Origin: Rhodoferax mekongensis
GTDB taxonomy: Bacteria > Pseudomonadota > Gammaproteobacteria > Burkholderiales > Burkholderiaceae_C
NCBI RefSeq assembly: GCF_032191775.1
Contig: NZ_CP132507.1
Coordinates: 3,063,001 to 3,127,000, forward strand
Direction: 5' to 3'
Length of the DNA: 64,000 nt
Shown here: positions 18,833 through 61,981 of the stretch, piece by piece
How the letters are laid out: each line of letters begins with the position of its first letter
Position numbering within the stretch: the first letter of the stretch is position 1
Program-made: the position numbers and the translations under genes
Notes under the pieces: model-generated
What the model was told of the DNA's origin: nothing
The model's input: the letters and a program-made list of their open reading frames with translations, nothing else
The model's database searches: none

Positions 18833-20032
18833 ATGCAAAAACGGAACACTCTCAAATTGATAGCTGCATGCGCAATGCTGATGGGCGCTAGCAGCGCTTT
18901 CAGCCAGGAAGTGATCAAGATCGCCAATATCGTCGAGCTGTCCGGTGGTGGCGCATCCGCCGGCACCAACTTCAAAAACGGTGTAGAACTGGCCGTGAAA
19001 GAAATCAACGCCTCCGGCGGCATCCTGGGCAAGAAGATCCAGACCATCACTTCTGACACCCAGTCCAACCCCGGCGTGGCCAAGGGCCTGACACAGAAAG
19101 CAGTGGACGATGACGTATTCGCCATCTTCGGCCCCGTGTTCTCCGGCTCCATCATGGTGTCCATGGCCGAAAGCCGCAAAGCGGAGATCCCCAACTTCAC
19201 CGGCGGCGAGGCAGCCAGCATCACCACCCAAGGCAATCCCTACATCTTCCGCACCAGCTTCACCCAAGCGACTGCCATGCCCAAGGTGGCCCGCTACATG
19301 AGCGAACAGGCCAAGCTCAAGAACATCGCCATCATTTACGTGAACAACGATTTCGGCAAAGGTGGCCTGGACATGATCAAAAAGGCGCTGGCCAACTCCA
19401 GCACCAAGATTGCAGCCGAAATCTCGACCGATGCCGGCCAAGTGGACTTCTCTGCCGCCGTGCTCAAGGCCAAGCAGAGCAATGCCGACGGCGTGTTTGT
19501 GTACACCAACGAAGAAGAGTCCGCCCGTGCCCTGCGCGAACTGCGCAAGCAGGGCTGGAACAAGCCCATCGTCGGTGAAACCACCCTCACCGGCCAGAAG
19601 GTTATTGAACTGGCCGGCGAAGCCGCCAACGGCGCCGTCGCTCACGTGGGCCTGACGGTGGATGCCCCCATCCCCGCCGTGCGTGCGTTCCGCGCCAAGT
19701 TCGAACGTGAGTACAAATACATCTCCGACCACAACGGCATGAAGGGCTACTCCGGCATTTACACCTTGAAGGCCGCGATTGAGAAGGTCGGCAAGCTGGA
19801 CCGCAAGGCCGTAGCCAACGCGCTGCACAGCCTGGTGGTGACCACCGACAAGGAACCCGGCATCCTGATGAACGTGGCCTTTGACCAGAACGGCGATCTG
19901 GACCGCGAAAGTTTCCTGGTGGAGGTGAAAAACGGCAAGCAGGAAGTGGTGGCGACCCTGCCCCCGCTGAACCCCATCGTCGTGAACAAGCCCGCAGCCG
20001 CTGCCAAGCCCGCTGCACCGGCCAAGAAGTAA
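18833..20032 (+). CDS. Liv-type ABC transporter substrate-binding protein
   Basis: A 399 aa periplasmic binding protein of the Peripla_BP_6 family (LivJ/LivK-like). After the signal peptide come VIKIANIVELSGGGASAGTN, IKTI-type strand KIQTITSDTQSN, AIFGPVFSGSIMVSMAES and NIAIIYVNNDFGKGGLDMIK. The C-terminus is an Ala/Pro/Lys tail. The signal peptide is unusual: its core, LKLIAACAMLMGASSAF, is encoded by a copy of the dispersed repeat. It heads an operon with two permeases and two ATPases. The downstream dehydroshikimate dehydratase suggests a hydroaromatic or aromatic acid ligand rather than leucine; this is inference. Confidence 0.9.
   Translation: MQKRNTLKLIAACAMLMGASSAFSQEVIKIANIVELSGGGASAGTNFKNGVELAVKEINASGGILGKKIQTITSDTQSNPGVAKGLTQKAVDDDVFAIFGPVFSGSIMVSMAESRKAEIPNFTGGEAASITTQGNPYIFRTSFTQATAMPKVARYMSEQAKLKNIAIIYVNNDFGKGGLDMIKKALANSSTKIAAEISTDAGQVDFSAAVLKAKQSNADGVFVYTNEEESARALRELRKQGWNKPIVGETTLTGQKVIELAGEAANGAVAHVGLTVDAPIPAVRAFRAKFEREYKYISDHNGMKGYSGIYTLKAAIEKVGKLDRKAVANALHSLVVTTDKEPGILMNVAFDQNGDLDRESFLVEVKNGKQEVVATLPPLNPIVVNKPAAAAKPAAPAKK
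18852..18898 (+). repeat. Dispersed LIAAC-type repeat, copy 3 (signal peptide of binding protein)
   Basis: AAATTGATAGCTGCATGCGCA followed by GGGCGCTAGCAGCG matches the repeat core with few changes. It is translated LIAACAMLMGASS and forms the hydrophobic core and part of the cleavage region of the signal peptide. Confidence 0.8.
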
Positions 20033-20051
20033 TGGCCTGAAGCCCCCTGCT

Positions 20052-20075
20052 CGCTCGGGCATAGCCACCCGAGCG
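20052..20075 (+). repeat. Intra-operon hairpin CGCTCGGG-N8-CCCGAGCG
   Basis: A perfect 8-bp inverted repeat sits in the 119 nt gap between the binding-protein and permease genes, without a T tract. Such hairpins commonly protect the upstream mRNA from 3' decay and give more binding protein than membrane subunits. Confidence 0.6.
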
Positions 20076-20151
20076 GACCAGGCGGGCTTTCTCTTCAGGG
20101 GACTGGCGATCCACCAGTTCCCCGGCTGGCACCGCGCCCCAAGGACTCCGA

Positions 20152-21027
20152 ATGACCGACTTTCTCCAACTCTTCTTCAGTGGAATGGCCACCGGCGCCA
20201 TCTACTCACTGGCGGCCCTCGGCTTTACGCTGTTGTGGCAGGCCAGTGGCACCATCAACTTCGCCCAAGGCGAGTTTGTGATGCTGCCCGCTTTCATGAT
20301 GCTGGGCTTCATGAGCATTGGCGCCCCCCTGGCGGTGAGCTTCGCCATGACGGTCGTGTTGGCCGTGTTCCTGCTGGGCTGGGTGTTCAAACGCGGCTTG
20401 GTCGACCCTTTGTTCAAGTTCGGCATGATGCCCATCGTCGTGGCCACCATCGGCCTGTCCATTGCCATGCGCAACGGGCTGCGCGCCGGCTACAGCGCCG
20501 AAGCCCACCCCTTCCCCAGCCTGTTTGCAGACAAGCTCTTCAACATCGCCGGTGTGACCATTACCTTGGCGGATGTAGGTACCTTTGCGGTAGCTCTGAT
20601 CCTCGTCTTTGTGGTGCAAGCCTTCATGACCAAAACGGTCACCGGCCGGGCCATGCAGGCGGTGGCGCAAAACACCGAAAGCGCGTCGGTGCTGGGCATC
20701 AATGTGCCCCGCATGATTTTTTACGCCTTTGCCATCAATGCCGTGCTGGCTGTCGCGGCCGCGCTCTTAGTCACGCCCACCTACCTTGCCAAGTTCGACA
20801 TGGGTGAGAGCCTGGGCACCAAGGCCTTTTTCGCCGCCATCATCGGCGGCTTCAACAACTCACGGGGTGCGCTGTTGGGCGGACTCATCGTCGGCGTATG
20901 CGAGAACTTGGCTGCGGCCTATATCTCACCCGCGTACAAAGATGCGGTGGCACTCGTGATCTTCATGGTCGTGATTTTGTTCAAGCCGCAAGGGCTGCTG
21001 GGCAAAAAAGTGGAACGCAAAGTCTGA
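20152..21027 (+). CDS. Liv-type ABC transporter permease (LivH-like)
   Basis: A 291 aa inner-membrane permease of the BPD_transp_2 family with about eight membrane segments. Family markers are GMATGAIYSLAALGFTLLWQ at the start, GTINFAQGEFVML, the cytoplasmic loop TGRAMQAVAQNTESASVLGI and AIIGGFNNSRGALLGGLIVG. It pairs with the LivM-like permease 19 nt downstream. Confidence 0.92.
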   Translation: MTDFLQLFFSGMATGAIYSLAALGFTLLWQASGTINFAQGEFVMLPAFMMLGFMSIGAPLAVSFAMTVVLAVFLLGWVFKRGLVDPLFKFGMMPIVVATIGLSIAMRNGLRAGYSAEAHPFPSLFADKLFNIAGVTITLADVGTFAVALILVFVVQAFMTKTVTGRAMQAVAQNTESASVLGINVPRMIFYAFAINAVLAVAAALLVTPTYLAKFDMGESLGTKAFFAAIIGGFNNSRGALLGGLIVGVCENLAAAYISPAYKDAVALVIFMVVILFKPQGLLGKKVERKV

Positions 21028-21046
21028 GTACCACCTGGACACCCTC

Positions 21047-22030
21047 ATGAAAAAAATTACTCTCATTTTGATAGCTGCTTGCGCAATCCTGCTGCTCGCT
21101 GCGCCGCCTTTTCTTAAAAATTACGGCATCTACCTGCTCTCTTACTGGCTGGTGTTTGTCATCGCCACCATGGGCCTGAACCTCACCGTGGGTTACGCGG
21201 GCCAGAAGTCACTGGGGCATGCGGCTTTCTTCGGCATAGGCGCCTACACCGTCGCCATTCTGATGAAAGCGGGCTTCAGCTTCTGGCTGGGCTTGCCTGC
21301 TGCCGCGCTGATTTGCTTTTTTGTGGGCATCGCATTGGGCTTTCCGGCATTGCGGGTGCAGACGATTTACCTCGCCTTTGCCACGCTGGGCTTCAATACG
21401 GCCGTCTGGCTGGTGATGCGCAACGAAGAATGGCTGACCGGCGGCACTTTCGGCATCAACAACATCACCCGACCTTCTCTTTTCGGCTATTCCCTGGAAG
21501 GCAACCTTGCGTACTACTACTTTGTGCTGGGCACTGCCGTCGTTCTGGGTGCGCTGCAATGGGGCCTGCTGCGCAGCCCCTGGGGCAAGGCATTTACCGC
21601 GTTGCGGGACAACCCCATACGCGCCGAAAGCCTGGGTATCAACACCCGCAGCTACACGCTGCTGAGCTTTGCCATTGGCGCTGTCTATGCGGGCATTGCA
21701 GGGGCGTTGTTTGCTTCGCTGGTGCAGTTCATCGAACCCGCGCCCTTCACGGTCGGCGCGTCCATCATGATGTACCTGATGGTGGTGGTCGGTGGTCCCG
21801 GCTACTTCCTGGGCCCGCTGCTGGGTTCTGCCGTCGGCGTCATCCTGCCCGAATGGCTGCGCTTTGCGCAGGCCTGGTACCTCTTTGTGTTCGGCTCTGC
21901 GGTGGTGTTACTGATGATCTGGTTGCCGGATGGACTGCTGAGCATTCCTGACCGTATCAAGGCCAAACGCCAGGCCCGTGAAGCCAGCGCCGCCCGTGCC
22001 GCTGCCGCCCAACAACAGGGAGCCCGATGA
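21047..22030 (+). CDS. Liv-type ABC transporter permease (LivM-like)
   Basis: A 327 aa permease with GLNLTVGYAGQKSLGHAAFF and the loop GKAFTALRDNPIRAESLGIN, typical of LivM. The first membrane segment, MKKITLILIAACAILLLAAP, includes the translated dispersed repeat (LIAACA). The last ~20 residues are a charged, Ala-rich tail. Its TGA overlaps the ATG of the next ATPase gene (ATGA at 22027-22030), so translation is coupled. Confidence 0.92.
   Translation: MKKITLILIAACAILLLAAPPFLKNYGIYLLSYWLVFVIATMGLNLTVGYAGQKSLGHAAFFGIGAYTVAILMKAGFSFWLGLPAAALICFFVGIALGFPALRVQTIYLAFATLGFNTAVWLVMRNEEWLTGGTFGINNITRPSLFGYSLEGNLAYYYFVLGTAVVLGALQWGLLRSPWGKAFTALRDNPIRAESLGINTRSYTLLSFAIGAVYAGIAGALFASLVQFIEPAPFTVGASIMMYLMVVVGGPGYFLGPLLGSAVGVILPEWLRFAQAWYLFVFGSAVVLLMIWLPDGLLSIPDRIKAKRQAREASAARAAAAQQQGAR
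21062..21104 (+). repeat. Dispersed LIAAC-type repeat, copy 4 (first membrane helix of LivM-like permease)
   Basis: TCATTTTGATAGCTGCTTGC then GCAATCC matches the left half of the repeat exactly at TTGATAGCTGCTTGCGCA; the right half has diverged. It is read in frame as LIAACA within the first hydrophobic segment. Confidence 0.75.
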
Positions 22031-22788
22031 TGAGCCAACCCGTGCTTAAAGTTAGCAACATCAAAAAGGCCTACGGCGCCATTCAGGCCGTCGGCGGTGT
22101 GTCCTTCGAAGTCATGCCCGGAGAAATCTTCGGCGTGATCGGGCCCAACGGCTCGGGCAAGACCACCCTGTTCAACAGCATGCTGGGCCAGATCACGCCG
22201 GATGAAGGCAAGATCGAACTCAACGGCCAGGACGTGACCCACGCCGGTCCGCTGGAACTCAGCCGCCGTGGAGTGGGCCGCACCTTCCAGACCCTGCAGG
22301 TCTTCGGCAAGATGAGCGTGCGCGACAACCTGATCGTCGCCGCGCAGGAGCACCAAGGCTCCATGCTCAGCCGCATGTTCGCCCCGTCCGACTCCGGTTT
22401 GGGCGCCAAGGCCGATGCGCTGATCGACCAGTTCCGCATCCGCCATGTGGCCGACAAAAAGGCGGGCGAGCTGTCCTACGGCCAGCAAAAGCTGGTGGAC
22501 ATTGCCATGGCCTTCATGAGCGAACCCGATCTGGTGCTACTCGATGAACCTTGCGCCGGCGTGAACCCCAGCCTGGTAGGGGGCATCAGCACCCTGCTCA
22601 AGGAGCTCAACCAGAACCCCAAATTCGGCAAGAAGAGCTCGTTTGTGGTCATCGAGCACAACATGGACTTTGTGATGGACCTGTGCCACCGCATCATGGT
22701 GATGGTGGAGGGCCAGGTGCTGGCCATCGGCACCCCCGAAGAAATTCGCAACAACAAGCAGGTGCTGGACGCCTACCTGGGGAGCTGA
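22027..22788 (+). CDS. Liv-type ABC transporter ATPase (LivG-like)
   Basis: Cytoplasmic ATPase of 253 aa: Walker A GPNGSGKTTLFN, Q-loop region GRTFQTLQVFG, signature LSYGQQKLVDIAMA, Walker B LVLLDEPCAGVNPS and H-loop VVIEHNMDF. The degenerate signature (LSYGQ) is normal for LivG. The family-specific C-terminal GTPEEIRNNKQVLDAYLG is present. It works as a heterodimer with the next gene product. Confidence 0.92.
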   Translation: MMSQPVLKVSNIKKAYGAIQAVGGVSFEVMPGEIFGVIGPNGSGKTTLFNSMLGQITPDEGKIELNGQDVTHAGPLELSRRGVGRTFQTLQVFGKMSVRDNLIVAAQEHQGSMLSRMFAPSDSGLGAKADALIDQFRIRHVADKKAGELSYGQQKLVDIAMAFMSEPDLVLLDEPCAGVNPSLVGGISTLLKELNQNPKFGKKSSFVVIEHNMDFVMDLCHRIMVMVEGQVLAIGTPEEIRNNKQVLDAYLGS

Positions 22789-22791
22789 GTC

Positions 22792-23544: not shown

Positions 23545-23582
23545 ACCCTTTTGTATTTCTTTTTTGACGACCGGGAGAACCC

Positions 23583-24467: not shown

Positions 24468-24472
24468 ACACC

Positions 24473-25375: not shown

Positions 25376-25397
25376 TACCAAGGGGAACCCGCCCGCC

Positions 25398-26297
25398 ATG
25401 AGCAGTGTGTTTGACGACTTTCTGTATGCCCCCGAAGTGCTGGAGTCCTTCGGGGCCCAGCGCTTTGTGGCGGCCATGCTGCGGGTAGAAGCTGCGTTGG
25501 CGCAGGCACAGGCCGACCAGGGTTTGATTCCTGCCGAGGCCGCCGTCTCTATCGTCGGCACTTGCAAAGTGGAGCTGTTTGATGCTCCGAAGATTGTGCG
25601 CGACAGCGCCGCCACCGGCAGCCTCGCCCAGCCCTTGGTAAAGAGCCTGCGCGAAACCGTGGGCCTGTTTAACCCGGCGGCGGTGCCTTTTGTGCATTTC
25701 GGCTGCACCAAGCAAGACCTGGTGGACACCACCATGGCGCTCATGAGCCGCCAAGTGCTGGCCGTCACCCGAGGCTATGTACAGGACTGCGTAGACCATC
25801 TCGAACGCAAAGCCAACCAGCCCACTGCAGCTGCGCCCTTGCAACGGGCCTTGCAGCGCTTGGCACACAGCAGTGCAGACGCTCTGGCCGTGCAACTGGG
25901 CGGCACCATGGCCAGCCTGGGTACGCCGGGCGCTGCCATCCAGACCCAGGTGGCCAAGACCCTGGAACTCTGCGTACCCGCCTTCCCCTGGGATACCCAA
26001 CGCGATGCCTGGCTGGCCCTGGGTTGTGATGTGGCGCTGTTGGTCGGCAGTCTGGGCACTTTGGCCCGCACCCTGGTGCGGGACGCTGAGCAAGAGGAAC
26101 CCGCCGCAGGCTGCCTGGTGGCGCTGGCCATGGCACGACGCGCACCCCAGCGTGCAGCGGGGCTGTTGACCTCCATGCCCCACGCCCATGAACGTGGCCT
26201 GGGTTTCTGGCAGGCGGACCAGAGCGACTGGACCCAGCTGCTGATGGCAGCCCACGCCGCCTCTTGGGGCATGGCACAGACGCTACAAAAAAAGTAG
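25398..26297 (+). CDS. PcaB/adenylosuccinate-lyase-like protein lacking the signature loop
   Basis: A 299 aa member of the fumarase/aspartase superfamily, nearest to 3-carboxy-cis,cis-muconate cycloisomerase (usually 350-450 aa). N-terminal ATGSLAQPLVKSLRETVG and VHFGCTKQDLVDTTMALMSR align with PcaB. The conserved flexible loop with the catalytic serine (GSSxMPxKxNP) is absent: DAEQEEPAAGCLVALAMARR runs straight into TSMPHAHERGLGFWQ. It may be a pseudoenzyme or use different chemistry. The frame is open further upstream, but the ATG at 25398 begins the family-like sequence and follows AAGGGGAA. Repeat copy 5 overlaps its stop. Confidence 0.75.
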   Translation: MSSVFDDFLYAPEVLESFGAQRFVAAMLRVEAALAQAQADQGLIPAEAAVSIVGTCKVELFDAPKIVRDSAATGSLAQPLVKSLRETVGLFNPAAVPFVHFGCTKQDLVDTTMALMSRQVLAVTRGYVQDCVDHLERKANQPTAAAPLQRALQRLAHSSADALAVQLGGTMASLGTPGAAIQTQVAKTLELCVPAFPWDTQRDAWLALGCDVALLVGSLGTLARTLVRDAEQEEPAAGCLVALAMARRAPQRAAGLLTSMPHAHERGLGFWQADQSDWTQLLMAAHAASWGMAQTLQKK

Positions 26298-26335
26298 CTG
26301 CTCGCGCATATTTCACGGGCGCCAAAGCCCCATTT
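26284..26335 (+). repeat. Dispersed LIAAC-type repeat, copy 5
   Basis: GCTAC, seven A, GTAGCTGCTCGCGCATATTT, then CACGGGCGCCAAAGCCCC. It overlaps the last codons of the PcaB-like gene, whose C-terminus (LQKK) and stop are supplied by the repeat. Confidence 0.8.
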
Positions 26336-26385
26336 CACTCATATTCGGCTATCCACGCGCCCCACTTGCTGGGGTGAAGGCGGTG

Positions 26386-26409
26386 CTTGTGCGAATGAGT
26401 GTGTTCCGG
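26386..26409 (+). promoter_or_regulatory. Shared element upstream of the BLUF-like gene
   Basis: CTTGTGCGAATGAGTGTGTT recurs almost exactly at 26990-27009 (one change), upstream of the XRE gene. A common operator for both genes is the simplest reading. Confidence 0.45.
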
Positions 26410-26475
26410 TTGCGATCCCTGTTTTCTACAGTGCCGTGCTAGCTATTCCGCAAGACAAGAATCAGGTACACGTGA

Positions 26476-30436: not shown

Positions 30437-30455
30437 GCCTTCAATCCCCTATGAA

Positions 30456-30513
30456 AACGGGCTCTGGCGCCCGTGGAATATGGGCGAGCAGCTTCTGAAT
30501 TGATAGCAAAAAC
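30456..30513 (-). repeat. Dispersed LIAAC-type repeat, copy 6
   Basis: On the minus strand: TGCTATCAATTCAGAAGCTG, CTCGCCCATATTCCAC, GGGCGCCAGAGCCC. It lies between ggt and dnaG. Confidence 0.8.
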
Positions 30514-35975: not shown

Positions 35976-36057
35976 TGTGGCCCCCACGCTCCGCCCCTGC
36001 GTGGGTCGCTGCCCCCCAAGGGGGCTAATTTCCCTTGGGGCGGCCCTACGGGAAATT
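35976..36057. repeat. GC-rich palindromic element after rpoD
   Basis: A run of short palindromes: CCCACGC/GCGTGGG, GCCCCC/GGGGGC and AATTTCCC (36027-36034) / GGGAAATT (36050-36057). A related sequence occurs at 56288-56365. I recognise this style as REP-like elements frequent in Comamonadaceae genomes. Confidence 0.6.
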
Positions 36058-36067
36058 TCTCTACGCA

Positions 36068-36114
36068 ATAGCGCCCCGGCCCACATGCGATGTGCGCGGG
36101 GCGCTATTTTTTTG
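36068..36114 (+). terminator. Terminator after rpoD
   Basis: Stem ATAGCGCCCCG (36068-36078) / CGGGGCGCTAT (36097-36107) with a 18 nt loop and a T7 tail. Confidence 0.85.
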
Positions 36115-36151
36115 ATAGTACCGATTTCACTTCCCGTTTATCCGACCTGTT

Positions 36152-45705: not shown

Positions 45706-48099
45706 ATGAGCGCCTTCCAGTCATTACATGCCGGCAACAGCACGCCCGAGACACGCGCCCGGGCACAACGTCTGGTGCGTGCCATGGTCGGCAAAACGCT
45801 GGGGTATTTTGAAGAACGCGACGCGGAGCAAATCAAGCATCTGCGCGGGCACTTGCTGGATTTGGCCGATGGCAAAGTGCCCATGATGCACGGGCAAAAC
45901 TTGCGTGCTGCATCCATGCTGCTGGACCGTCAGTCCGAGCGCTTTCTGAAGAACTATCGCGCTGAATTGCAAAAGTCTTTGCATGAGGACATTGCCCAGG
46001 TGTGGCCGGGCATGACCCAGCTTTCCGCCCCCGTGCAGGCGCATGGCCAAACGCTGGACGGCATGTCGCTCAGCCTCATTGATGTGGATGAAGTCCACCG
46101 CATCCTGTTGCTGGACCGGGTGGCTCAGCGCTTTAACAATCGGTTTGAACCCCTGTTGACTGCGCTAAGTACCAAGCTGGCTGCTCTGGTCGGCGATGAA
46201 ACTGTTTCCTTGTCCCAGAACCCGTTCCGCCCCCTGGTACTGCTCAAGGGATTCATGCTGGGCTGGGAGAAGAGCGAGCTGGACCCCCAGGTGACGGAGC
46301 ATTTGGTCGATGCGCTGGAGCCCGGTCACTTCATCGACCTGGAGCCGCTGTACACCGACCTGATTTCCATGCTGACGCAGGCAGGTGTGCAAGCCACCAC
46401 CGTGCACCGCATCCGCAAGGCGCCAAGTTCACCGTCCAATTTCGCCCCCTTGTCTGCGCCCGCACCCTTGGGAGCGGCCCATCAGGCAACTCCGACCGGA
46501 ACACAAGAAAACGGCAGTCCAGTCGCAGCCGGACCATCGGTAGGCGCTGGGGCCGTTGCCCCTCCAAATTCCGGCAACCGCCCCGCTTGGGCCGCGTTGG
46601 CGCCCACAGGGCAACAGATCGTCCAGCAAGTACGCAACTTCCTGCAGCGCTTGGGTGTAGGCCGCGCCTCTGCCGCCGGCGCGGAAGGGTTTGAAATGTC
46701 CGGCGAAGACGGCGATGCACAGGGTCATGGTTCGAGCATCGCCATTCCGGCCGACCCCGCTTTGCTGCAATACCTGGGCGCCATGCAAGCAGGTGCAGGA
46801 CGTGGCTCGCAGTTCCAGTTTTTGCAGGACGACCAGCCTGAAGGAGAACCGGCACAGCACCGCAACGTGTTGCGCCAACTCCGGGCCCAACCCGCTTTTC
46901 AGGACGCCCAGGAGCTGGACCGCGGCACCGTGGATGCACTGGCCGAGGTGTTTGACTACGTGTTTGCGGACGGGGCTATTCCGGCAGAGCTCAAAGTCAT
47001 CATCGGGCGCCTGCAGATTCCGGTGCTGCGCGCAGCCATGATGGACCGCGACTTCTTCTTGAGCACGGAACACCCGGCCCGCAAACTGGTGGACACCTTG
47101 GCGTCAGCCTCTGTCACTTGGACACCTGAAAAAGGCGAACAGGATCCTCTCTACCTGCGGATTGAAGGCACCGTTCAGCGGGTGTTGCACGAGTTTGATG
47201 ACGACTTGGCACTCTTTACCGTGCTGCTGGCGGAGTTCACCGAATTCCTGTTCGAGTGCGAACAGCAGGTGGATGTGCACATTGAGCCCGTCACCCAGAA
47301 AGAAAACAACCAGGAACAACTCAACGCAGCGCTGGCCCATGCCGACGAGATCGTGCATGCACGCATTACTGCCCTGCCGGCCCATTTGCCACTGGCGCCC
47401 TTTCTCAAGCCTTTCCTGGCCATGCAGTGGCGACAAGTGATTGCTCTGGCCTGGATGACCGAAGACAGCCATGCGGGCCACTGGAACCATACACTGGACA
47501 TCATGGACCAGCTGATCTGGAGCACGCAGCCCAAAACCACCAGCGAGGAGCGGCAGAAACTCGTCGCCCTGCTGCCTGAGCTGGTCCGTACCCTGAACAC
47601 GGAGCTGGACAGCATTCACTGGGAAGGCGAAGACCGTGGCAACTTCACACGCCGCTTGATCGCCACCCACATGCTGGCCATCCGCATGAAGGCCGCTGCG
47701 CCCCTGGACACCCAAGGTGCGGCACTGGAAGAAAGTGCGGGCGAGGAAGCCATGCAGGCGCTGGATGAGCGGCGCGCCATCAAGCTGGCGGAGCAGGACC
47801 AGAGCCAGATGGATGAATTCGATGCTAACGCGCAGTTGCTGACCCGTGGCGTGTGGTTTGAAAAAGTGTCTCCTGACACTCCGCCCTTCCGCTGCCGCCT
47901 GAGCTGGGTCAGCCCGATGCGCACGCGCTTTTTGTTCACCAACCGCGAAGGCTTCGACGCCTTCGTGCTGTCCGAGCGGGAAGTCGCCGCCATGCTGCGC
48001 CGCCAGGAGCTGCAGATGCTCGATCAGGCGCCTATCGTGGAACGCGCATTGAACCGGCTCATGGCAGACAACGAGCCCGAGCTACGTCTGCAAGCCTGA
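45706..48099 (+). CDS. DUF1631 family protein
   Basis: A large 797 aa protein of the DUF1631 family, common in beta- and gammaproteobacteria. It has helical segments throughout, an Ala/Pro/Gly-rich linker (about residues 245-300) and a C-terminal region ending in FVLSEREVAAMLRRQELQML, preceded by the beta-rich PPFRCRLSWVSPMRTRFLFT. The latter looks like a PilZ-type barrel with its RxxxR partly changed; a cyclic-di-GMP link is only a suggestion. No membrane segment. Single gene, no obvious partner; 190 nt upstream have no feature I can name. Confidence 0.82.
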   Translation: MSAFQSLHAGNSTPETRARAQRLVRAMVGKTLGYFEERDAEQIKHLRGHLLDLADGKVPMMHGQNLRAASMLLDRQSERFLKNYRAELQKSLHEDIAQVWPGMTQLSAPVQAHGQTLDGMSLSLIDVDEVHRILLLDRVAQRFNNRFEPLLTALSTKLAALVGDETVSLSQNPFRPLVLLKGFMLGWEKSELDPQVTEHLVDALEPGHFIDLEPLYTDLISMLTQAGVQATTVHRIRKAPSSPSNFAPLSAPAPLGAAHQATPTGTQENGSPVAAGPSVGAGAVAPPNSGNRPAWAALAPTGQQIVQQVRNFLQRLGVGRASAAGAEGFEMSGEDGDAQGHGSSIAIPADPALLQYLGAMQAGAGRGSQFQFLQDDQPEGEPAQHRNVLRQLRAQPAFQDAQELDRGTVDALAEVFDYVFADGAIPAELKVIIGRLQIPVLRAAMMDRDFFLSTEHPARKLVDTLASASVTWTPEKGEQDPLYLRIEGTVQRVLHEFDDDLALFTVLLAEFTEFLFECEQQVDVHIEPVTQKENNQEQLNAALAHADEIVHARITALPAHLPLAPFLKPFLAMQWRQVIALAWMTEDSHAGHWNHTLDIMDQLIWSTQPKTTSEERQKLVALLPELVRTLNTELDSIHWEGEDRGNFTRRLIATHMLAIRMKAAAPLDTQGAALEESAGEEAMQALDERRAIKLAEQDQSQMDEFDANAQLLTRGVWFEKVSPDTPPFRCRLSWVSPMRTRFLFTNREGFDAFVLSEREVAAMLRRQELQMLDQAPIVERALNRLMADNEPELRLQA

Positions 48100-48133
48100 G
48101 TGTCACGGGGCATAGCCAAGCCCGACGTTCTGC

Positions 48134-48186
48134 ACTATCAAAAAAATAGCGCCTCGCGCAAGTAGCGCGGGCGCTAGCAGACTAAA
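48134..48186 (+). repeat. Dispersed LIAAC-type repeat, copy 9
   Basis: CTATCAAAAAAATAGCGCCT, CGCGCAAGTAGCGC, GGGCGCTAGCAGAC, lying between the convergent DUF1631 and nitronate monooxygenase genes. Confidence 0.75.
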
Positions 48187-48196
48187 TCGCTTTTTT

Positions 48197-49162
48197 TCAG
48201 GCGTAATTGCGCGCCAGCAGTTCAGCCTTGGCAGCGGCGTACTCCCGCTTGAGCTGAGCCACAAACTCGCCTGCAGGTTGAATTTTGTCGACGGCGCCGA
48301 TGCCCTGCCCGCAGCCCCAGATATCTTTCCAGGCTTTGGCCGATGCGCCGCCAAAATTCATCTTGCTCGGGTCGCTCTCCGGCAGGTTGGCAGGGTCCAG
48401 GCCCGCCGCGCGGATGCTGGGCGCCAGGTAGTTGCCGTGCACACCGGTGAAGAGGTTGCTATACACAATCTCATCCGAGTTGTTGTCCACGATGGCCTGC
48501 TTGTATTCCTGCACGGCGCGGGCTTCTTCGGTCGCAATAAAGGCCGAGCCGATGTAAGCGAAGTCTGCGCCCATGGCTTGCGCCGCCAGCACCGAGGCAC
48601 CCGTGGCAATGGAGCCGGACAAGGCCAATGGGCCATCGAACCACTGGCGGATTTCCTGCACCAGGGCAAACGGGCTCTTCACACCCGCATGACCACCGGC
48701 ACCAGCAGCCACGGCGATCAGGCCGTCCGCGCCTTTTTCAATGGCTTTGTGCGCGTGCTTGTTGTTGATGATGTCATGCAACACCACACCGCCGTAAGAG
48801 TGAGCTGCGGCATTGATGTCTTCGCGCGCGCCCAGTGAGGTGATGATGATCGGCACCTTGTACTTCACGCACAGAGCCATGTCGTGCTCCAGGCGGTCGT
48901 TGCTCTTGTGCACGATCTGGTTGATGGCAAAAGGCGCGGCCGGTCGGTCCGGATGGGCCGCGTTGTGGGCCGCCAAAGCCTCGGTAATCTCTTTCAGCCA
49001 GTCCTCCAGCAACTCGGCCGGACGCGCATTGAGTGCCGGCATGGAGCCCACCACACCCGCAATGCATTGGGCAATCACCAGCTTCGGGTTGCTGATGATG
49101 AACAGCGGCGAGCCGATCACCGGAAAGGGCAGCGTATCCAGCGGTGCAGGCAGTTTGGACAT
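48197..49162 (-). CDS. Nitronate monooxygenase-type flavoprotein
   Basis: A 321 aa FMN TIM-barrel. GSPLFIISNPKLVIAQCIAG, FAINQIVHKSNDRLEHDM, the FMN-phosphate motif AVAAGAGGHAG, and ALSGSIATGASVLAAQAMGA with DFAYIGSAFIATEEA are class markers. It oxidises alkyl nitronates such as propionate-3-nitronate, a natural toxin, although some relatives are enoyl reductases. The ATG at 49162 follows GAGGAGA. It is framed by two copies of the dispersed repeat. Confidence 0.9.
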   Translation of the reverse strand: MSKLPAPLDTLPFPVIGSPLFIISNPKLVIAQCIAGVVGSMPALNARPAELLEDWLKEITEALAAHNAAHPDRPAAPFAINQIVHKSNDRLEHDMALCVKYKVPIIITSLGAREDINAAAHSYGGVVLHDIINNKHAHKAIEKGADGLIAVAAGAGGHAGVKSPFALVQEIRQWFDGPLALSGSIATGASVLAAQAMGADFAYIGSAFIATEEARAVQEYKQAIVDNNSDEIVYSNLFTGVHGNYLAPSIRAAGLDPANLPESDPSKMNFGGASAKAWKDIWGCGQGIGAVDKIQPAGEFVAQLKREYAAAKAELLARNYA

Positions 49163-49197
49163 GGGGTCTCCTCGGGTACTTGTAGGGAAGTAATCGA

Positions 49198-49252
49198 CTG
49201 GTAGCGCCCGCAAAATATGCGCGGGAAGCTACCAAATCTATAGCATCAACTT
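49198..49252 (-). repeat. Dispersed LIAAC-type repeat, copy 10
   Basis: On the minus strand: TGCTATAGATTTGGTAGCTT, CCCGCGCATATTTT, GCGGGCGCTACCAG. It fills the gap upstream of the nitronate monooxygenase gene. Confidence 0.78.
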
Positions 49253-49275
49253 TGCCGTCATCGCCGGCAAGCCCA

Positions 49276-55327: not shown

Positions 55328-55367
55328 CTGTGTCTCGGCTTTTTTGATTTTCGGGTAAGGTCTCTTT

Positions 55368-56288
55368 ATGGACATCCAAGACAAACTCAGATCCCTGCTC
55401 AACCAGCTTAACACGGTGATTGTGGGCAAACCCGATCAGATCCGCGACTGCGTAGCCTGCCTCTTGGCCGGTGGTCACCTGCTGATTGACGACGTACCCG
55501 GTGTAGGCAAAACCACCCTGGCCCACGCGCTGTCGCGCACCTTCGGCCTGCAGTTCTCGCGGGTGCAGTTCACCTCCGACCTGATGCCCAGCGATCTGAC
55601 CGGCGTGTCGGTGTATGAGCGCGGCAAAGAAGCTTTTGTATTCCACCCCGGCCCCCTGTTTGCCCAGGTGTTGCTGGCGGACGAAATCAACCGCGCCAGC
55701 CCCAAGACCCAAAGTGCCTTGCTCGAAGCCATGGAAGAAAAGCAGGTCACCGTCGAAGGTGAAACCCGCGCCCTGCCCCGCCCTTTCTTCGTCATCGCCA
55801 CCCAAAACCCCTTGGACCAGCTCGGCACCTACGCGCTGCCCGAATCCCAGCTGGACCGCTTTCTGATGCGCATCTCCCTGGGCTACCCGGACCGTGCGGC
55901 TGAGCGCGCACTGCTCGCAGGCGAGGACCGCCGCGCCATGGTGGACCACCTGCCCAGCCTGCTGCAAGGCGACGAACTCGATCGCCTGCAGCAGGCGGTG
56001 CAAGCCGTGCATGCCGCCGACCCGCTGCTGGACTATGTGCAAGACCTGATCACCGCGACCCGCAGCGGCCGCTGGTTCCTGCAAGGTCTGTCGCCCCGCG
56101 CCGTTATTGCGTTGCTGCGAGCCGCCAAAGCCCAGGCCCTGATCAGCGGCCGGGACTACGTGGCCCCCGACGATGTGCAGGCCGTGCTGCCACAAACCAT
56201 TGCGCACCGGCTGATTCCGGTGGGTGACGCGGGGCGCGGTGCTGAAGAGCAGGTGCGCGCGATGTTGCAAGCAGTTCCGCTGCCCTGA
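55368..56288 (+). CDS. MoxR-family AAA+ ATPase
   Basis: A 306 aa chaperone-like ATPase. Walker A is DDVPGVGKTTLAHALS, Walker B is VLLADEINRASPKTQSALLE, with EMEE-type AMEEKQVTVEGET, sensor-1 FVIATQNPLDQLGTYALPES and QLDRFLMRISLGYP. MoxR proteins usually assist in the maturation of complexes encoded nearby, together with DUF58 proteins. AAGG lies 8 nt before the ATG. Its stop overlaps the ATG of the next frame. Confidence 0.94.
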   Translation: MDIQDKLRSLLNQLNTVIVGKPDQIRDCVACLLAGGHLLIDDVPGVGKTTLAHALSRTFGLQFSRVQFTSDLMPSDLTGVSVYERGKEAFVFHPGPLFAQVLLADEINRASPKTQSALLEAMEEKQVTVEGETRALPRPFFVIATQNPLDQLGTYALPESQLDRFLMRISLGYPDRAAERALLAGEDRRAMVDHLPSLLQGDELDRLQQAVQAVHAADPLLDYVQDLITATRSGRWFLQGLSPRAVIALLRAAKAQALISGRDYVAPDDVQAVLPQTIAHRLIPVGDAGRGAEEQVRAMLQAVPLP

Positions 56289-56365
56289 TGGCCCCCCCAC
56301 TAAGCGCCCTTGGCGCCTCCCCCCCAGGGGGGCGCACCCGGCGGCCCAGCGAAGCTGGTTCCACA
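56288..56365. repeat. GC-rich palindromic element at the DUF58 start
   Basis: CCCCCCCACTAAGCGCC, GGCGCCTCC, CCCCCAGGGGGGC and GGCGGCCCAGC. It shares the C-run/G-run layout and GGCGGCCC word with the element behind rpoD (35976-36057). Confidence 0.6.
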
Positions 56366-57355
56366 GGTGCCCTGACTTGGAATCCGGTCACCCTTGTGCG
56401 GCGGCGCTTTCAAGCCTGGTGGCAGGCGCGCTTGCCACTCAAGGACAGCACCACCCTCAACCAGCGCAATGTGTACATCCTGCCCACGCGGCCGGGGTTC
56501 ATGCTGGGGCTCACGCTGCTGGTGCTGCTGGTGGCCAGCATCAACTACCAGCTTAATCTGGGCTACCTGCTCACCTTCATGCTGACCGGGGCGGCCATCA
56601 TCGGCGTGCATGTGTGCCACGGAACGCTCAGCGGTCTCACTATGCATTTGATAGCACCTGACGCACATTTTGCGGGCGCCAGCGTGCCATTGGGCATACA
56701 ACTCAACAACCCGTCCAAACGCAACCGTTACGGCATAGGCCTGGCTGTTCTGGGCAGCGGACACTGGAGCTGGACCGACGTGGGCCCGCAAGGCAGCGCC
56801 AAGGTGCAGATCAGCTTTCCCGCCACGGTGCGTGGGCTGCAGCCCCTGCCTGCCTTGACCGCAGAAACCCGCTTTCCGCTAGGGACCTTCCGGGTCTGGA
56901 CCGTGTGGCGCCCGGCCTCCAAGGTGCTGGTTTACCCCGCGCCGGAATTGAACCCGCCCCCCTTGCCACCGGGCGAGCCCCGCAGCGGCGGCGCCCAAAC
57001 CGCGCAGCGCCACACCACCGGCGAGTTCGATGGCGTACGCGCCTACCGCCGGGGCGACCCGCTCAAACTCGTGGTCTGGAAGAAGGCCGCCAAGAGCGAC
57101 GAACTGGTCAGCCGCGACGCCCAACAAGCCCAGCGACTGGAGCTGTGGCTGGACTTGGGCGCTGTGGAAAACCAGCTCCGCAACCGCGCTGCCGGTGGCG
57201 TGCGAGAGCTGGCCCTCTCGCGCCTGTGTGCATGGGTGCTGCAAGCCGAAAGCCGTGGCCTGCGCTACGGATTGCGTTGGGGCTCGCACGAGTTGGCGCC
57301 CGATAGCGGCCCGGCCCACCAGAAGAACTGCTTGCAAGCCCTGGCGCTGGCCTGA
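56288..57355 (+). CDS. DUF58 membrane-linked protein
   Basis: 355 aa if started at the ATG overlapping the moxR stop. Two adjoining membrane helices (LPTRPGFMLGLTLLVLLVAS, GYLLTFMLTGAAIIGVHV) precede the DUF58 signature TTGEFDGVRAYRRGDPLKLV. The first ~25 residues (APPLSALGASPPGGRTRRPS) are encoded by a GC-rich palindromic element, so the true start may be GTG 56396 (VRRRFQAWWQARL). A copy of the dispersed repeat inside the gene encodes MHLIAPDAHFAGASVPL at about residues 118-134. It works with MoxR and the transglutaminase-like protein that follow the same order in many genomes. Confidence 0.88.
   Translation: MAPPLSALGASPPGGRTRRPSEAGSTGALTWNPVTLVRRRFQAWWQARLPLKDSTTLNQRNVYILPTRPGFMLGLTLLVLLVASINYQLNLGYLLTFMLTGAAIIGVHVCHGTLSGLTMHLIAPDAHFAGASVPLGIQLNNPSKRNRYGIGLAVLGSGHWSWTDVGPQGSAKVQISFPATVRGLQPLPALTAETRFPLGTFRVWTVWRPASKVLVYPAPELNPPPLPPGEPRSGGAQTAQRHTTGEFDGVRAYRRGDPLKLVVWKKAAKSDELVSRDAQQAQRLELWLDLGAVENQLRNRAAGGVRELALSRLCAWVLQAESRGLRYGLRWGSHELAPDSGPAHQKNCLQALALA
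56643..56690 (+). repeat. Dispersed LIAAC-type repeat, copy 11 (inside DUF58 gene)
   Basis: CATTTGATAGCACCTGACGC, ACATTTTGC, GGGCGCCAGCGTG. It is read in the same frame as the other in-gene copies (LIAPDA...GAS) in the segment after the second membrane helix. Confidence 0.7.
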
Positions 57356-57379
57356 GCCCACCGAACCCCGACAACCGCC

Positions 57380-59386
57380 ATGCTGCAACGCCTTCAAACC
57401 CTGCCCCGTGAGGCCCGCGACACCCTGTTTCTGTTGGGGGTGATTGCCTGGGTCATCCTGCCGCAACTGGACCGTCTGCCCTGGTGGTGCAGCGCGATGG
57501 CAGGCGGCGTGCTGCTGTGGCGCGGCGTGCTGGCCTGGGGCAGCCGCCCCCTGCCTTCGCGCTGGTGGCTGCTGGCCTTGTTGGCACTGGCCACGGCCGG
57601 CACCTGGTTCAGCTACCGCACCCTGCTCGGGCGGGATGCCGGGGTCACCTTCATCGTGGTGCTGCTGGCACTCAAAACCCTGGAGATGCGTGCAAGGCGC
57701 GATGCCTTCGTCATTTTCTTTCTGGGCTTTTTCACCATACTCAGCAACTTCTTTTTCTCGCAAAGCCTGCTGACTGCGGGGGCCATGGTGATCGCCCTGC
57801 TGGGCCTGCTGACGGCACTGGTCAACAGCCACATGCCGGTCGGCCGCCCGCCCCTGATGCAAGCCGCACGCATGGCGGGGTGGATGGCGCTGGCCGGCGC
57901 CCCCATCATGGCGGCACTGTTCATGCTGTTCCCCCGCATCGCTCCGCTGTGGGGCTTGCCGGGCGACGCGATGAGCGGGCGCAGCGGCCTCTCCGGCCAA
58001 ATGCAGGTAGGCACGATTGCCAGCCTCGCATTGGACGACAGCATTGCCATGCGCATCAAGTTTGACGGCCCGCCGCCGCCCCAGGATCAAATGTATTTCC
58101 GCGGCCCGGTGTTCTCCACCTTTGACGGGCGGGAATGGAAACCCCTGCGCTCGGCTTTCCCCTCCCGCGTCCAGCTGCAGCCCGAACTCGCGGTACGCGG
58201 CAACCCAGTGAGCTACCAAGTCACCCTGGCGGCTAACAACCGCCCGTGGCTCATGGTGTTGGACGCCACACCACAGGCACCCGAGATCGTGGGCTATAGC
58301 GTGAGCATGGGGCCCGACCTGCAATGGCAAGCCGACCAGCCGATTGCGGATCTGGTGCGCTACCGCGCCACCAGCTACCCTGACTTCCGGCACGGCCCCA
58401 ACCGCTTGGCCGTGGGCCTGCAGGACTTCCTGGACCTCCCTCCGGGCTTCAACCCACGTACCTTGCAGCTCGCCGCTGAATTGCGCCGCCAGCCGGAGCT
58501 GGCAACCGCCGGAGCCCAAACCCTCGTCGAGGCGGTGATGAACAAGCTGCGCACAGGAGGCTACGAATACACCCTAGAACCGGGTGTCTATGGCACCCAC
58601 ACGTCCGACGAGTTCTGGTTCGACCGCAAGGCCGGTTTTTGCGAACACATTGCGTCGAGCTTTGTCATCCTGATGCGCGCTTTGGATATACCCGCCCGTG
58701 TAGTCACCGGTTACCAGGGCGGGCAGGTCAACACTGTGGATGGTTTCTGGACCGTACGGCAAAGCGATGCCCACGCGTGGGCTGAAGTCTGGATGGCCGG
58801 CCGCGGCTGGGTGCGGGTGGACCCGACATCGGCCGTCTCGCCGGGCCGGGTGGGTATAGGCACCTACACCCGCTTGCAGCCCCAACCCAATGTGTTTACC
58901 CAAGCCCTCAACACCGTGAGCCCCGGCTTCTCGGTGAACCTGCGCGCGATCTGGGAAGCCACCAACAACCGTTGGAACCAGTGGGTGCTGAACTACAGCC
59001 AGGCCAAGCAAATGGATTTGCTGCGCAACATCGGCTTCAGCGCGCCAGATTGGCAGGACCTGAGCACCGTGCTGATAGTCCTGATCGTCACGGCCAGCCT
59101 GGCGGGCGCTGGCTGGAACTGGTGGGAGCGGCAACGCCAGGACCCCTGGCTGCGCTTGTTGCAAGCTGCAAGACAGCGCCTGCGTGCACTGGGCCTGCCG
59201 GTGCCGGACGATGGGACGCCACGCGCACTGGCGAACTTGCTTCAGGGTGACGCGCGGGCCACGCCCGAGGCTATCGCTTGGCTCATGCGCTTGGAAGCCT
59301 GGCGCTATGCCAAACAGAACGGCAACGCCGCGGATTTGCGCAACTTGCGCGGCGAACTGAACACCCTGCGCTGGCTCCAGGCCTGA
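57380..59386 (+). CDS. TgpA-type membrane transglutaminase-like protein
   Basis: A 668 aa protein. Five to six N-terminal helices (to about residue 180, DUF3488) are followed by a periplasmic transglutaminase-like domain with triad Cys421 (RKAGFCEHIASSFVILMRAL), His465 (SDAHAWAEVW) and Asp481 (RVDPTSAVSPGRVG). A further helix (LSTVLIVLIVTASLAGAGWN) and a cytosolic C-terminal DUF4129 end it. In Pseudomonas TgpA is essential; the substrate is not settled. It completes the moxR-DUF58-tgpA set. Confidence 0.93.
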   Translation: MLQRLQTLPREARDTLFLLGVIAWVILPQLDRLPWWCSAMAGGVLLWRGVLAWGSRPLPSRWWLLALLALATAGTWFSYRTLLGRDAGVTFIVVLLALKTLEMRARRDAFVIFFLGFFTILSNFFFSQSLLTAGAMVIALLGLLTALVNSHMPVGRPPLMQAARMAGWMALAGAPIMAALFMLFPRIAPLWGLPGDAMSGRSGLSGQMQVGTIASLALDDSIAMRIKFDGPPPPQDQMYFRGPVFSTFDGREWKPLRSAFPSRVQLQPELAVRGNPVSYQVTLAANNRPWLMVLDATPQAPEIVGYSVSMGPDLQWQADQPIADLVRYRATSYPDFRHGPNRLAVGLQDFLDLPPGFNPRTLQLAAELRRQPELATAGAQTLVEAVMNKLRTGGYEYTLEPGVYGTHTSDEFWFDRKAGFCEHIASSFVILMRALDIPARVVTGYQGGQVNTVDGFWTVRQSDAHAWAEVWMAGRGWVRVDPTSAVSPGRVGIGTYTRLQPQPNVFTQALNTVSPGFSVNLRAIWEATNNRWNQWVLNYSQAKQMDLLRNIGFSAPDWQDLSTVLIVLIVTASLAGAGWNWWERQRQDPWLRLLQAARQRLRALGLPVPDDGTPRALANLLQGDARATPEAIAWLMRLEAWRYAKQNGNAADLRNLRGELNTLRWLQA

Positions 59387-59390
59387 GGGC

Positions 59391-60749
59391 TCAGGAAGCC
59401 GGTGCGGCGGGGGGACCCGCAGGCGCTTCTGAAGGCGCCACTGCGGGCAGCTCCTCCTCGGGCAGTGCCAAACTCTCACCCGCCAGAAACGCTTTGATCC
59501 AGGCATCCAGCTTCTGGAGACCCAGTTGCACCATGGCGCTATCCAGCGTTTTGCCGCTGACTTTCAGGATGCCGCCGCCGTACTCAAAGCCGGCTTGCAC
59601 CCCATCAGGTACTTCATTCACGTACCCGGTGGACAAGGCGAATGCCTTTTGCTCAGGCTGCATGAGCTTGCCCTTGATATGGATGCGCCCGCTGCTGGAG
59701 AGCTGGCTGGCGAGCAACACTTCGTCGCCCTGCGCGGGGGCCAGGGTCAGCACCAGATTGCCATCCAGACCGCCTTCGTTGCCGCTGCCCTGCAGCTTGG
59801 GGATGCCCACACTGAACCCGGCGAGCAGCAGCTTCTTCAGGGCAGTGCGCATTTGCAGCTTCTCGTCGGCCGTCGCGTTTTGCAGGCCGCAACTCTCACT
59901 GAACACTTTGCTCAGCGTCTGCACGCTGGCGGTATGCAAGCCTTTGACTTCGGCCTCCAGCACCAGGTCTTGGAGGTTTTGCCCCAGCAACTGCGCACTG
60001 CGCACCGACTCGGTAACCCTGGAGTCCAGCCGGTCACCGCGCTCGGTCGTTTCGCTGCTGACGCGAAGGCCTTGCAGGGTCACGCCGGTGGTACTCATGC
60101 TTTCAATGTCCAAAGCCGCGCGGCCCGTACCTACCGTCCGGTTTTTCAGATCCAGGCTCAGGGCGATGTGTTTCGCCTCCAGGGCATGGCCAATGCCGCG
60201 CAATGCCATGCGTTCAAAGACCCAGTCAAAGCGCAAGGCCGTTTTCCCAAGCTCCATGCGCCCGCCGGAGGGCGTCACCTGCAGAGTTTCGCCCTTGGCC
60301 ACCATGGCCAGCTCAGGCAGTTGCATCTCGGTACTGAAAGTGCCATCGAAGCCCGCGTGCCCGGTTCCGGTGAGTTTGCCCCCGCGCAGCAGTTGTTGCA
60401 CACCGGTAGCTGCCTCGCCCGCCGGCGCTGCAGACCAGTCAAAGCGCGTCAGGCCCTTCCAATCCGGCACATGGCGGGCGCGGTACTCCAGATGCACTAC
60501 GGTCGGCCCCTGGGAGTCTTCGGCACATTGGTTATGCCATTCCAGATCCAGCGCTCCAGAAGAATTGAACCAACCGGCCTCGTGCGCCAGATTACGGATG
60601 CGCAAGTCGCCCTTGGAGTGCTCGAGCGCCAGCTCCTGCAAGCCGGCCGCCAACATGCGCGAGCTGTACCAGGGAACCGCCAGGGCGCCTGCAGTGATAA
60701 CAAAGGCACTGCCGGCCAGGACGACACAGAGGCGAGAGGAAAGACGCAT
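59391..60749 (-). CDS. DUF945 (YdgA-like) family protein
   Basis: A 452 aa envelope protein. An N-terminal helix (MRLSSRLCVVLAGSAFVITA) anchors or exports it; the rest is beta-rich, with WNS-type SSGALDLEWHNQC and LDIESMSTTGVTLQGLRVSS. A Glu/Pro/Ala-rich tail ends it. ATG 60749 follows GAGAGGAAAG. It is convergent with tgpA, the stops 4 nt apart. Role unknown. Confidence 0.78.
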   Translation of the reverse strand: MRLSSRLCVVLAGSAFVITAGALAVPWYSSRMLAAGLQELALEHSKGDLRIRNLAHEAGWFNSSGALDLEWHNQCAEDSQGPTVVHLEYRARHVPDWKGLTRFDWSAAPAGEAATGVQQLLRGGKLTGTGHAGFDGTFSTEMQLPELAMVAKGETLQVTPSGGRMELGKTALRFDWVFERMALRGIGHALEAKHIALSLDLKNRTVGTGRAALDIESMSTTGVTLQGLRVSSETTERGDRLDSRVTESVRSAQLLGQNLQDLVLEAEVKGLHTASVQTLSKVFSESCGLQNATADEKLQMRTALKKLLLAGFSVGIPKLQGSGNEGGLDGNLVLTLAPAQGDEVLLASQLSSSGRIHIKGKLMQPEQKAFALSTGYVNEVPDGVQAGFEYGGGILKVSGKTLDSAMVQLGLQKLDAWIKAFLAGESLALPEEELPAVAPSEAPAGPPAAPAS

Positions 60750-60877
60750 GAAAACTGCTACCCGATGAACACAACAAGCTGGCATTGTGCCCGCAAGCCC
60801 TTCGGCACTGGCTACACTGCCATGCAAATGCCGGCCTCTGACGGCAGACCGGCACCCACCCTTTGCAAGACTCTATT

Positions 60878-61981
60878 GTGTCCCTGAAAAAAATCCTGAC
60901 CGCTCTCATTTTGATAGCTGCTTGCGCACATTCCATGGGCGCCAATGGCAAAAAACACCATAAAACCAAAGCCACTTCAAAGCCTGCAGTAGCAGCCACC
61001 GAGGGCACGCCGTACGGCCAGAGGGAAGACGTCATGCGCGCGGCAGACGACATCGCCCAGCGCCGCAACTTGGACCCTGCCTGGGTCCGCGCCACCTTGT
61101 CCAAGGCCCGTATGGTGCCGGCCATCGTGCGGGCGATCACGCCACCTGCGGTAGGCACCCCCAAAAACTGGGCCCTCTACCGCAGCCGCTTCGTGGAGCC
61201 CATCCGCATCAAGGCAGGCGTCAAATTCTGGCTCGCCAACCAAGAGACGCTGGCCCGCGCAGAAGCCCAGACAGGTGTACCGGCCAGCATCATCGTCGGC
61301 ATCATCGGTGTCGAGACCATTTACGGCCAGCAACTCGGCAACTACCGCGTCATTGACGCGTTGACCACCCTGAGTTTTGATTTTCCGGACGCCCACCCGC
61401 GCAAGGCTGCACGGGCTGCCTACTTTTTGACCGAACTTGAGGCCTACCTCAGCCTCACCCAACGCACCGGCACCGACCCCATGGCCCTGCGCGGCAGCTA
61501 CGCCGGCGCCATGGGCTGGCCACAGTTCATGCCCTCGAGTTGGGCCAAGTACGGTATCGACTTTGACGCGGACAGCCGGGTAGACCTGTTCCACAGCCAG
61601 GCCGATGTAATCGGCTCCGTGGCCAATTACTTCCAGGCCTTCAAGTGGCAACGGGGCATGCCCACCCACTACCCGGTGCAGTTCGACATGGCACGCCTGG
61701 ACCAAGCGGCCTTGATGGCGCCGGACATCGTGCCCACCTTCAGCCCCCCCACCATGCAGGACAAAGGTGTGGTGCTGGATGCCGCAGGCCAGGCGCACCC
61801 CGGCCTGCTGGCCCTGATCGAACTGCAAAACGGGGCCGAGCCCCCGACCTATGTGGCAGGCACCGAGAACTTTTACGTCATTACCCGCTACAACTGGAGC
61901 AGCTACTACGCCATGGCGGTCATTGATCTCGGACAGGCCGTGGCCCAAGCCGTACAAGCCCAGACAGGCATGCCAAAATAA
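60878..61981 (+). CDS. mltB: Membrane-bound lytic murein transglycosylase B
   Basis: A 367 aa lipoprotein that cuts the peptidoglycan glycan chain and forms 1,6-anhydro ends. The catalytic Glu146 is in IIGVETIYGQQLGNY, and GSYAGAMGWPQFMPSSWAKY and SVANYFQAFKWQRGMPTH are family marks. The signal is LKKILTALILIAACAHSMGA: its hydrophobic core and lipobox IAAC come from a copy of the dispersed repeat. GTG 60878 is my start (a TTG lies 5 codons upstream). The next gene begins 3 nt after the stop. Confidence 0.93.
   Translation: MSLKKILTALILIAACAHSMGANGKKHHKTKATSKPAVAATEGTPYGQREDVMRAADDIAQRRNLDPAWVRATLSKARMVPAIVRAITPPAVGTPKNWALYRSRFVEPIRIKAGVKFWLANQETLARAEAQTGVPASIIVGIIGVETIYGQQLGNYRVIDALTTLSFDFPDAHPRKAARAAYFLTELEAYLSLTQRTGTDPMALRGSYAGAMGWPQFMPSSWAKYGIDFDADSRVDLFHSQADVIGSVANYFQAFKWQRGMPTHYPVQFDMARLDQAALMAPDIVPTFSPPTMQDKGVVLDAAGQAHPGLLALIELQNGAEPPTYVAGTENFYVITRYNWSSYYAMAVIDLGQAVAQAVQAQTGMPK
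60904..60950 (+). repeat. Dispersed LIAAC-type repeat, copy 12 (lipobox of MltB)
   Basis: CATTTTGATAGCTGCTTGCG, CACATTCCAT, GGGCGCCAATGGC, with only a few changes from the full consensus. It is read as LIAACAHSMGAN. Confidence 0.85.

Follow-up and report, generated by a model that had tools for sequence, protein, structure and literature searches.

A long DNA motif, repeated throughout the genome of Rhodoferax mekongensis, appears and disappears in place inside protein-coding genes, and protein length is unchanged at the in-gene sites tested. We followed it from a window of 64,000 nucleotides (contig NZ_CP132507.1, positions 3,063,001 to 3,127,000) to the whole source genome (G000) and its relatives. 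A first-pass annotation of this window had described four in-gene copies, three of them in genes for a LivK-like binding protein, a LivM-like permease and MltB, and had proposed that genes captured the repeat as a ready-made export cassette. Rather, the motif in all likelihood arises in place and is read, as DNA, by a factor acting in trans. We put forward tentatively that this reader may belong to DNA uptake or recombination during natural transformation, by analogy with the DNA uptake sequences (DUS) of Neisseria and the uptake signal sequences (USS) of Haemophilus. Taken as a whole, the statement that the repeat is a DNA recognition motif found across the genomes of some Comamonadaceae, read in trans and most like uptake sequences rather than an export cassette, is in our judgment evenly balanced.

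Searches with the core motif TTTGATAGCTGCTTGCGCA at up to three mismatches found five matches in the window, where shuffled sequences predict 0.04, and three of these are copies named in the first-pass annotation. Scored with a 68-position matrix built from the genome copies, the four in-gene sites (livK, livM, a DUF58-like gene and mltB) reach 52, 50, 46 and 75 bits, and 20 simple shuffles of the window contain no site of at least 8 bits. The four copies are thus real and far above chance; their cores lie within a few bases of where the annotation had placed them, and their translations are as it gave them. In total, the window holds 11 copies of at least 14 bits (Table 1). The source genome (3.89 Mb) contains 128 core copies at up to two mismatches, 69 and 59 on the two strands, and the reversed core, used as a control, has no match in it. 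We analyzed 102 of the 128, that is 100 listed copies and two in the window. Their consensus, TTGCTATnnTTTTGATAGCTGCTtGCGCAnATTCcACGGGCGCTAG..., spans about 67 bp with a conserved core of about 19 bp and includes a near-palindromic GCTAT...ATAGC part. With genes called by a home-made codon-usage finder, 57 copies lie between genes, 17 lie within genes in sense and 28 within genes in antisense orientation; the finder missed the GTG start of MltB, whose copy was therefore tallied as intergenic. Most of the analyzed copies fall outside signal peptides, and in the loci that we sampled the motif likewise occurs on both strands, between genes and within them.

Inside genes, the choice of reading frame is far from random. 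All 17 sense copies (15 of 15 outside the window) are translated in the phase that yields LIAACA, which bears out, on a genome scale, the single sense frame that had been noted for the first four. Among the antisense copies, 22 of 28 (21 of 27 outside the window) use the phase that yields AQAAIK, and the other two phases account for 4 and 2. Eight additional in-gene copies found with the matrix agree on phase (6 of 6 sense, 2 of 2 antisense). The LIAACA frame is also the most hydrophobic of the six, reading FAIILIAACAY with a mean Kyte-Doolittle value of 2.59 in the typed consensus. Stop codons explain only part of this bias, because not all of the unused frames are closed. In the 57 intergenic copies, the sense frames are open in 52 (LIAACA), 35 and 0 cases and the antisense frames in 50 (AQAAIK), 47 and 3, and the antisense frame that is least often open is nonetheless used by 4 of the 28 antisense in-gene copies. 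A pure stop-codon effect is therefore insufficient, and we would attribute the remaining bias to what the encoded peptide tolerates. Antisense copies in unrelated proteins, including TruB, encode a recurring AP...[AV][QR]xA[IT]K-like peptide (window positions 10800-10867; loci L224, L004, L028, L029, L214 and L217).

Two conserved genes show how the motif comes and goes. The product of the gene at 56288-57355 has no Pfam match, and we take it to be DUF58-like; its motif region reads LTMHLIAPDAHFAGASVPL. In loci from the genus and the order, 28 of 30 could be aligned (the two omitted are short and do not extend across the site); all 28 are ungapped at the site, and nine carry the motif at 14 bits or more. 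The same holds in a set of 80 named records, which rank highest among 571 relatives and so lean to close kin: the site is ungapped in all 80, motif present or not. The motif reaches at least 14 bits in 43 of them, always at the identical nucleotide and at no other position within 30 nt; another 5 have scores from 0 to 14 bits and 32 have negative scores. Many of these 32 differ by synonymous, GC-rich codons. Parsimony places 18 changes of motif state on a quick tree from which the site was left out. Ten rows from other families have no motif at this site. In TruB, where the copy is antisense, all 24 same-genus rows are ungapped and the motif is present in 10, always at one offset; in six rows from other families the loop is gapped and no motif is found.

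At some sites, the motif does coincide with export signals. Judged by eye and by hydropathy, it forms the core of a signal peptide or first transmembrane helix in LivK (MQKRNTLKLIAACAMLMGASSAFSQ; Pfam Peripla_BP_6), in the LivM-like permease (MKKITLILIAACAILLLAAPPFLKNYG; BPD_transp_2) and in MltB ((V)SLKKILTALILIAACAHSMGAN, from a probable GTG start at 60878; SLT_2), and does so in the signal-peptide-like starts of two further proteins, which we take to be DUF1775-like and TctC-like. A third N-terminal copy outside these genes, MKLIAASAHSTGAEG, does not resemble a signal peptide. Capture of the repeat by genes for its hydrophobic signal-peptide core and lipobox would fit these five cases, as well as the one common sense frame with its hydrophobic peptide. 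With the window and the hand-added MltB copy included, 6 of 18 sense copies begin within 30 codons of the gene start where 2.0 are expected (P=0.009), an excess that would fit capture as well. A fair position test excludes the window copies, since the window was chosen because of these genes. Of the 15 sense copies outside it, 3 begin within these 30 codons and 1.73 would be expected (P=0.24), which is not a significant enrichment; the numbers are 1 of 6 against 0.58 for the further sense copies found with the matrix and 2 of 27 against 2.2 for antisense copies. The apparent enrichment stems from the window's own three copies, and an N-terminal preference of the motif is not established. The 28 antisense in-gene copies also speak against capture as an export cassette.

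Orthologues of the exported proteins point in the same direction. The motif is present in LivK and LivM of G001 and G019. In G017, both proteins have the same lengths without it and align ungapped, and the LivK peptide, MQKRRTLKLIAAAAILICAGSAFA, is nearly identical in the absence of motif DNA; LivK of G026 has a signal peptide of its own. Nine genomes have the motif in MltB with a score of at least 14 bits, and the supposed lipobox position is a cysteine in five of them (G000, G001, G007, G012 and G019) and His, Pro, Tyr and Tyr in G003, G008, G014 and G021, respectively. At the same place, MltB of G006, G013 and G017 reads LLATCALQAGA without motif DNA. Of 18 loci for the DUF1775-like protein, 6 have the motif, and the others show signal-peptide-like starts of their own, similar in length. 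The TctC-like protein, from a large family, carries it in 3 of 21; the other 18 are less closely related family members (46-52% identity), of which 17 start differently and one lies on a contig that stops short of the start. The motif does form the hydrophobic core in LivK, LivM and MltB, as had been suggested, but goes with a lipobox cysteine in only five of the nine MltB proteins. Orthologues with the same peptide and no motif DNA are what the first-pass annotation itself had named as speaking against capture. Together with the position test outside the window, the ungapped orthologues lead us to reject an insertion cassette, and we consider export as the reason for the motif's presence highly improbable.

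A genome tends either to have the motif at many of the sampled sites or to lack it at all of them. In the loci fetched outside G000 and G001 (overlapping loci counted twice, orthologous sites included), its density is 0.5-2.9 copies per 10 kb in nine genomes and zero in 28, of which 14 belong to the genus. G001 has 82 core copies at up to two mismatches, 34 and 48 by strand. Among 300 genomes of the order, in which G000 is the sole member of its genus, 22 have a core match: 128 copies in G000, 70 in G117, 11 in G318, 6 in G228, 6 in G207 (one variant) and 1 in each of the others. G117, which belongs to the same family and has 34 and 36 copies on the two strands, is the only one of the 300 to approach G000. 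The motif is found in several genera of Comamonadaceae; Polaromonas and Acidovorax also belong to this family, that of the source genome. In G117, from another genus, copies have the same core and a different 3' half, often with GCGCT (L416-L427), and the gene finder places all 14 copies in these 12 stretches between genes.

Genomes also differ in the version of the motif that they carry. Between copies in different genes, identity is 0.598 within genomes and 0.566 between genomes (P=0.0008), or 0.623 and 0.570 (P=0.0002) when one of the three closest relatives is kept, in a small sample of four genes and ten or eight genomes. For example, G008 has ATAGCTGCTCCCGCA in mltB, truB and the DUF1775-like gene, and G003, G011 and G021 have CGAGGGCTA in common in several copies, the DUF58-like site not being among them.

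We propose that a trans-acting reader would favor DNA that carries the motif. Copies would form through substitutions or the replacement of short stretches, at places where the encoded peptide can accommodate LIAACA (sense) or AQAAIK (antisense). Since LIAACA would be well accommodated by signal peptides and first transmembrane helices, the motif could overlie an existing export signal. Several observations weigh against this proposal. No reader gene was found, and known uptake cores are far shorter than the motif. Presence and absence are not strictly all-or-none: G022 lacks the motif at the DUF58-like and truB sites and has a 71.7-bit copy near an IS200-type gene (L434:2321-2388), a single exact core occurs in G006, the copy at the DUF58-like site is missing from G008, and an Acidovorax record that also has no copy at this site bears another nearby. 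Dialects are not uniform either, as G003 and G011 have CGGGGGCTA at the DUF58-like site, and the dialect test is small. G001 lacks two segments, 48096-48195 and 49167-49269, each bearing one of the window's copies (nine of the 11 window copies have a counterpart of at least 14 bits at the same place in G001). Finally, of 56 intergenic copies, 37 have an upstream neighbor gene in the same orientation, whose stop codon is a median of 23 nt away. Because intergenic copies often sit shortly after stop codons, a 3'-end element or one of the repetitive extragenic palindromic (REP) type would also fit.

A mobile repeat of the REP kind, or of the kind of miniature inverted-repeat transposable elements (MITEs), would be spread by a transposase such as a REP-associated tyrosine transposase (RAYT), and the in-gene copies would be insertions kept when in frame. 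The many copies, their extragenic preference and their place after stop codons suit such an element. Of 30 genomes searched, 28 have matches to Y1_Tnp genes of the RAYT-like or IS200 type; in G014 alone, a RAYT-like Y1_Tnp gene lies between two strong copies (L436:1335-1402 and 2217-2284), and a Y1_Tnp gene of G000 ends in a weak copy. Yet Y1_Tnp genes occur in motif-poor and motif-rich genomes alike, so their presence does not discriminate between the two. The in-gene orthologues are ungapped, which is not what insertion predicts. In favor of a mobile repeat, two copies lie in the segments of about 100 bp missing from G001, where the flanking genes nearly abut or overlap; but the ends of these indels differ from the motif ends, and no target duplication is visible by eye. 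Possible stems do not covary: in the 57 intergenic copies, the paired counts at each tested pair deviate by no more than 2 from what the columns predict. Given this and the lack of any Rfam match at the gathering score in the window, we also rejected an RNA helix. Overall, a mobile repeat appears fairly unlikely.

The same evidence that argues for a motif read in trans would suit a site that is bound by a protein of chromosome structuring or repair and is conserved for that binding, not for uptake; the near-palindromic part would be in keeping with it. However, the 102 copies in G000 show no strand polarity of the type seen in FtsK-orienting polar sequences (KOPS) or Chi (P=0.48), and hundreds of copies seem many for such a site, which makes this reading unlikely. 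If copies spread in concert through ectopic gene conversion or short-patch recombination with one another, no reader would be required, and both in-place replacement and dialects would follow. Such spread explains poorly how a first copy arises in a conserved gene without an indel, or why motif-poor genomes lack the motif jointly at several sites, and we regard it as improbable.

Table 1. Copies of the motif in the window (positions in the window; core start with mismatches in brackets)
Location	Motif	Strand	Score (bits)	Core start (mismatches)	Remarks
Intergenic	7822..7889	+	80.3		Core 31 nt past a stop codon; conserved in G001
Gene 10007-11506	10800..10867	-	52.0		Antisense, APAAIN reading; same site in G001
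livK-like gene 18833-20032	18844..18911	+	52.2	18856 (2)	Overlaps signal peptide
livM-like gene 21047-22030	21055..21122	+	50.2	21067 (0)	Exact core; overlaps first transmembrane helix
3' end of gene 25398-26297	26278..26345	+	54.9		Diverged counterpart at same site in G001
Intergenic	30444..30511	-	49.2		Same site in G001
	36056..36123	-	14.8		Weak copy; same site in G001
Intergenic	48130..48197	+	23.8		Absent from G001, inside ~100 bp segment missing there
Intergenic	49181..49248	-	53.6		Absent from G001, inside ~100 bp segment missing there
DUF58-like gene 56288-57355	56635..56702	+	46.0	56647 (4)	Mid-gene; more diverged core
mltB, GTG start about 60878, end 61981	60898..60965	+	74.8	60910 (0)	Exact core; overlaps signal peptide

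If a motif read in trans shapes coding sequence, part of the protein variation in this family, such as that in signal peptides and in the TruB loop, would reflect selection at the level of DNA and not protein function. For annotation, this counsels caution: an apparent lipobox, or a stretch of LIAACA or AQAAIK, may be a translation of the motif. It is possible, if on the doubtful side, that the Comamonadaceae have a self-recognition signature of their own. They would then be a third lineage with uptake-type sequences after Neisseriaceae and Pasteurellaceae, with species dialects and an unusually long motif that has rewritten parts of signal peptides and of proteins such as TruB in place. The motif would, if this is true, allow a direct test of whether uptake-type signatures evolved in another family.

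Among other repeats, REP elements with their RAYTs and MITEs are likewise short, repeated and preferentially extragenic; unlike them, the motif has no covarying stem, no demonstrated insertion and ungapped in-gene sites. Rickettsia palindromic elements share with the motif that repeat DNA is translated within proteins. They lengthen proteins by in-frame insertion, whereas protein lengths are unchanged at the motif sites tested. Neither GATAGCTGCTTGCGC nor AGCTGCTTGCGC occurs as unbroken letters in the literature text searched, and titles and abstract openings on Comamonadaceae repeats, uptake sequences and Rickettsia palindromic elements describe no use of the motif in signal peptides. The betaproteobacterial repeat elements (BRE) occur in Betaproteobacteria including Comamonadaceae, with some copies in genes, but the relevant sections of PMC3110155 give them about 90 bp, 69% GC in Bordetella and a tandem arrangement at some loci. 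We judged them to be different from the motif by published length and GC, the sequences themselves not having been compared.

Closer relatives may be found in the motif pairs that a section of PMC5217627 (2017) terms potential novel motifs, mostly intergenic and near genes with some in genes. They comprise ATAGCT(N)22CAAAAG in Polaromonas naphthalenivorans (125 copies, 101 intergenic and 18 in genes) and GCTTAT(N)5AAGCG in Acidovorax ebreus (114 copies), and the genome with most motif pairs there is that of Rhodoferax ferrireducens T118 (140). The Polaromonas pair shares ATAGCT with our motif and differs in spacing and second half; an Acidovorax copy of our motif (L286) has the half GCGCTTTAATAGTAAGCGC, which is close, though not identical, to the Acidovorax pair. 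The published pairs and the present motif are probably related. That section of PMC5217627 deals with the pairs without reading frames, orthologues or dialects.

The nearest functional parallel would be the DUS of Neisseriaceae and the USS of Pasteurellaceae. The motif, known here from sequence alone, occurs in another family and is much longer: uptake sequences have short cores of about 9-12 bp (10-12 bases in the values quoted in the pertinent part of PMC2346458), and its own core has about 19 bp. In most other traits the two are alike. DUS and USS occur in many copies on both strands, and those in genes favor one orientation and are biased in position (PMC2346458); they also form lineage dialects (PMC3630211). 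The motif, too, occurs in many copies in both orientations, is specific to lineages, appears in place at the in-gene sites tested and shows dialects at unrelated loci.

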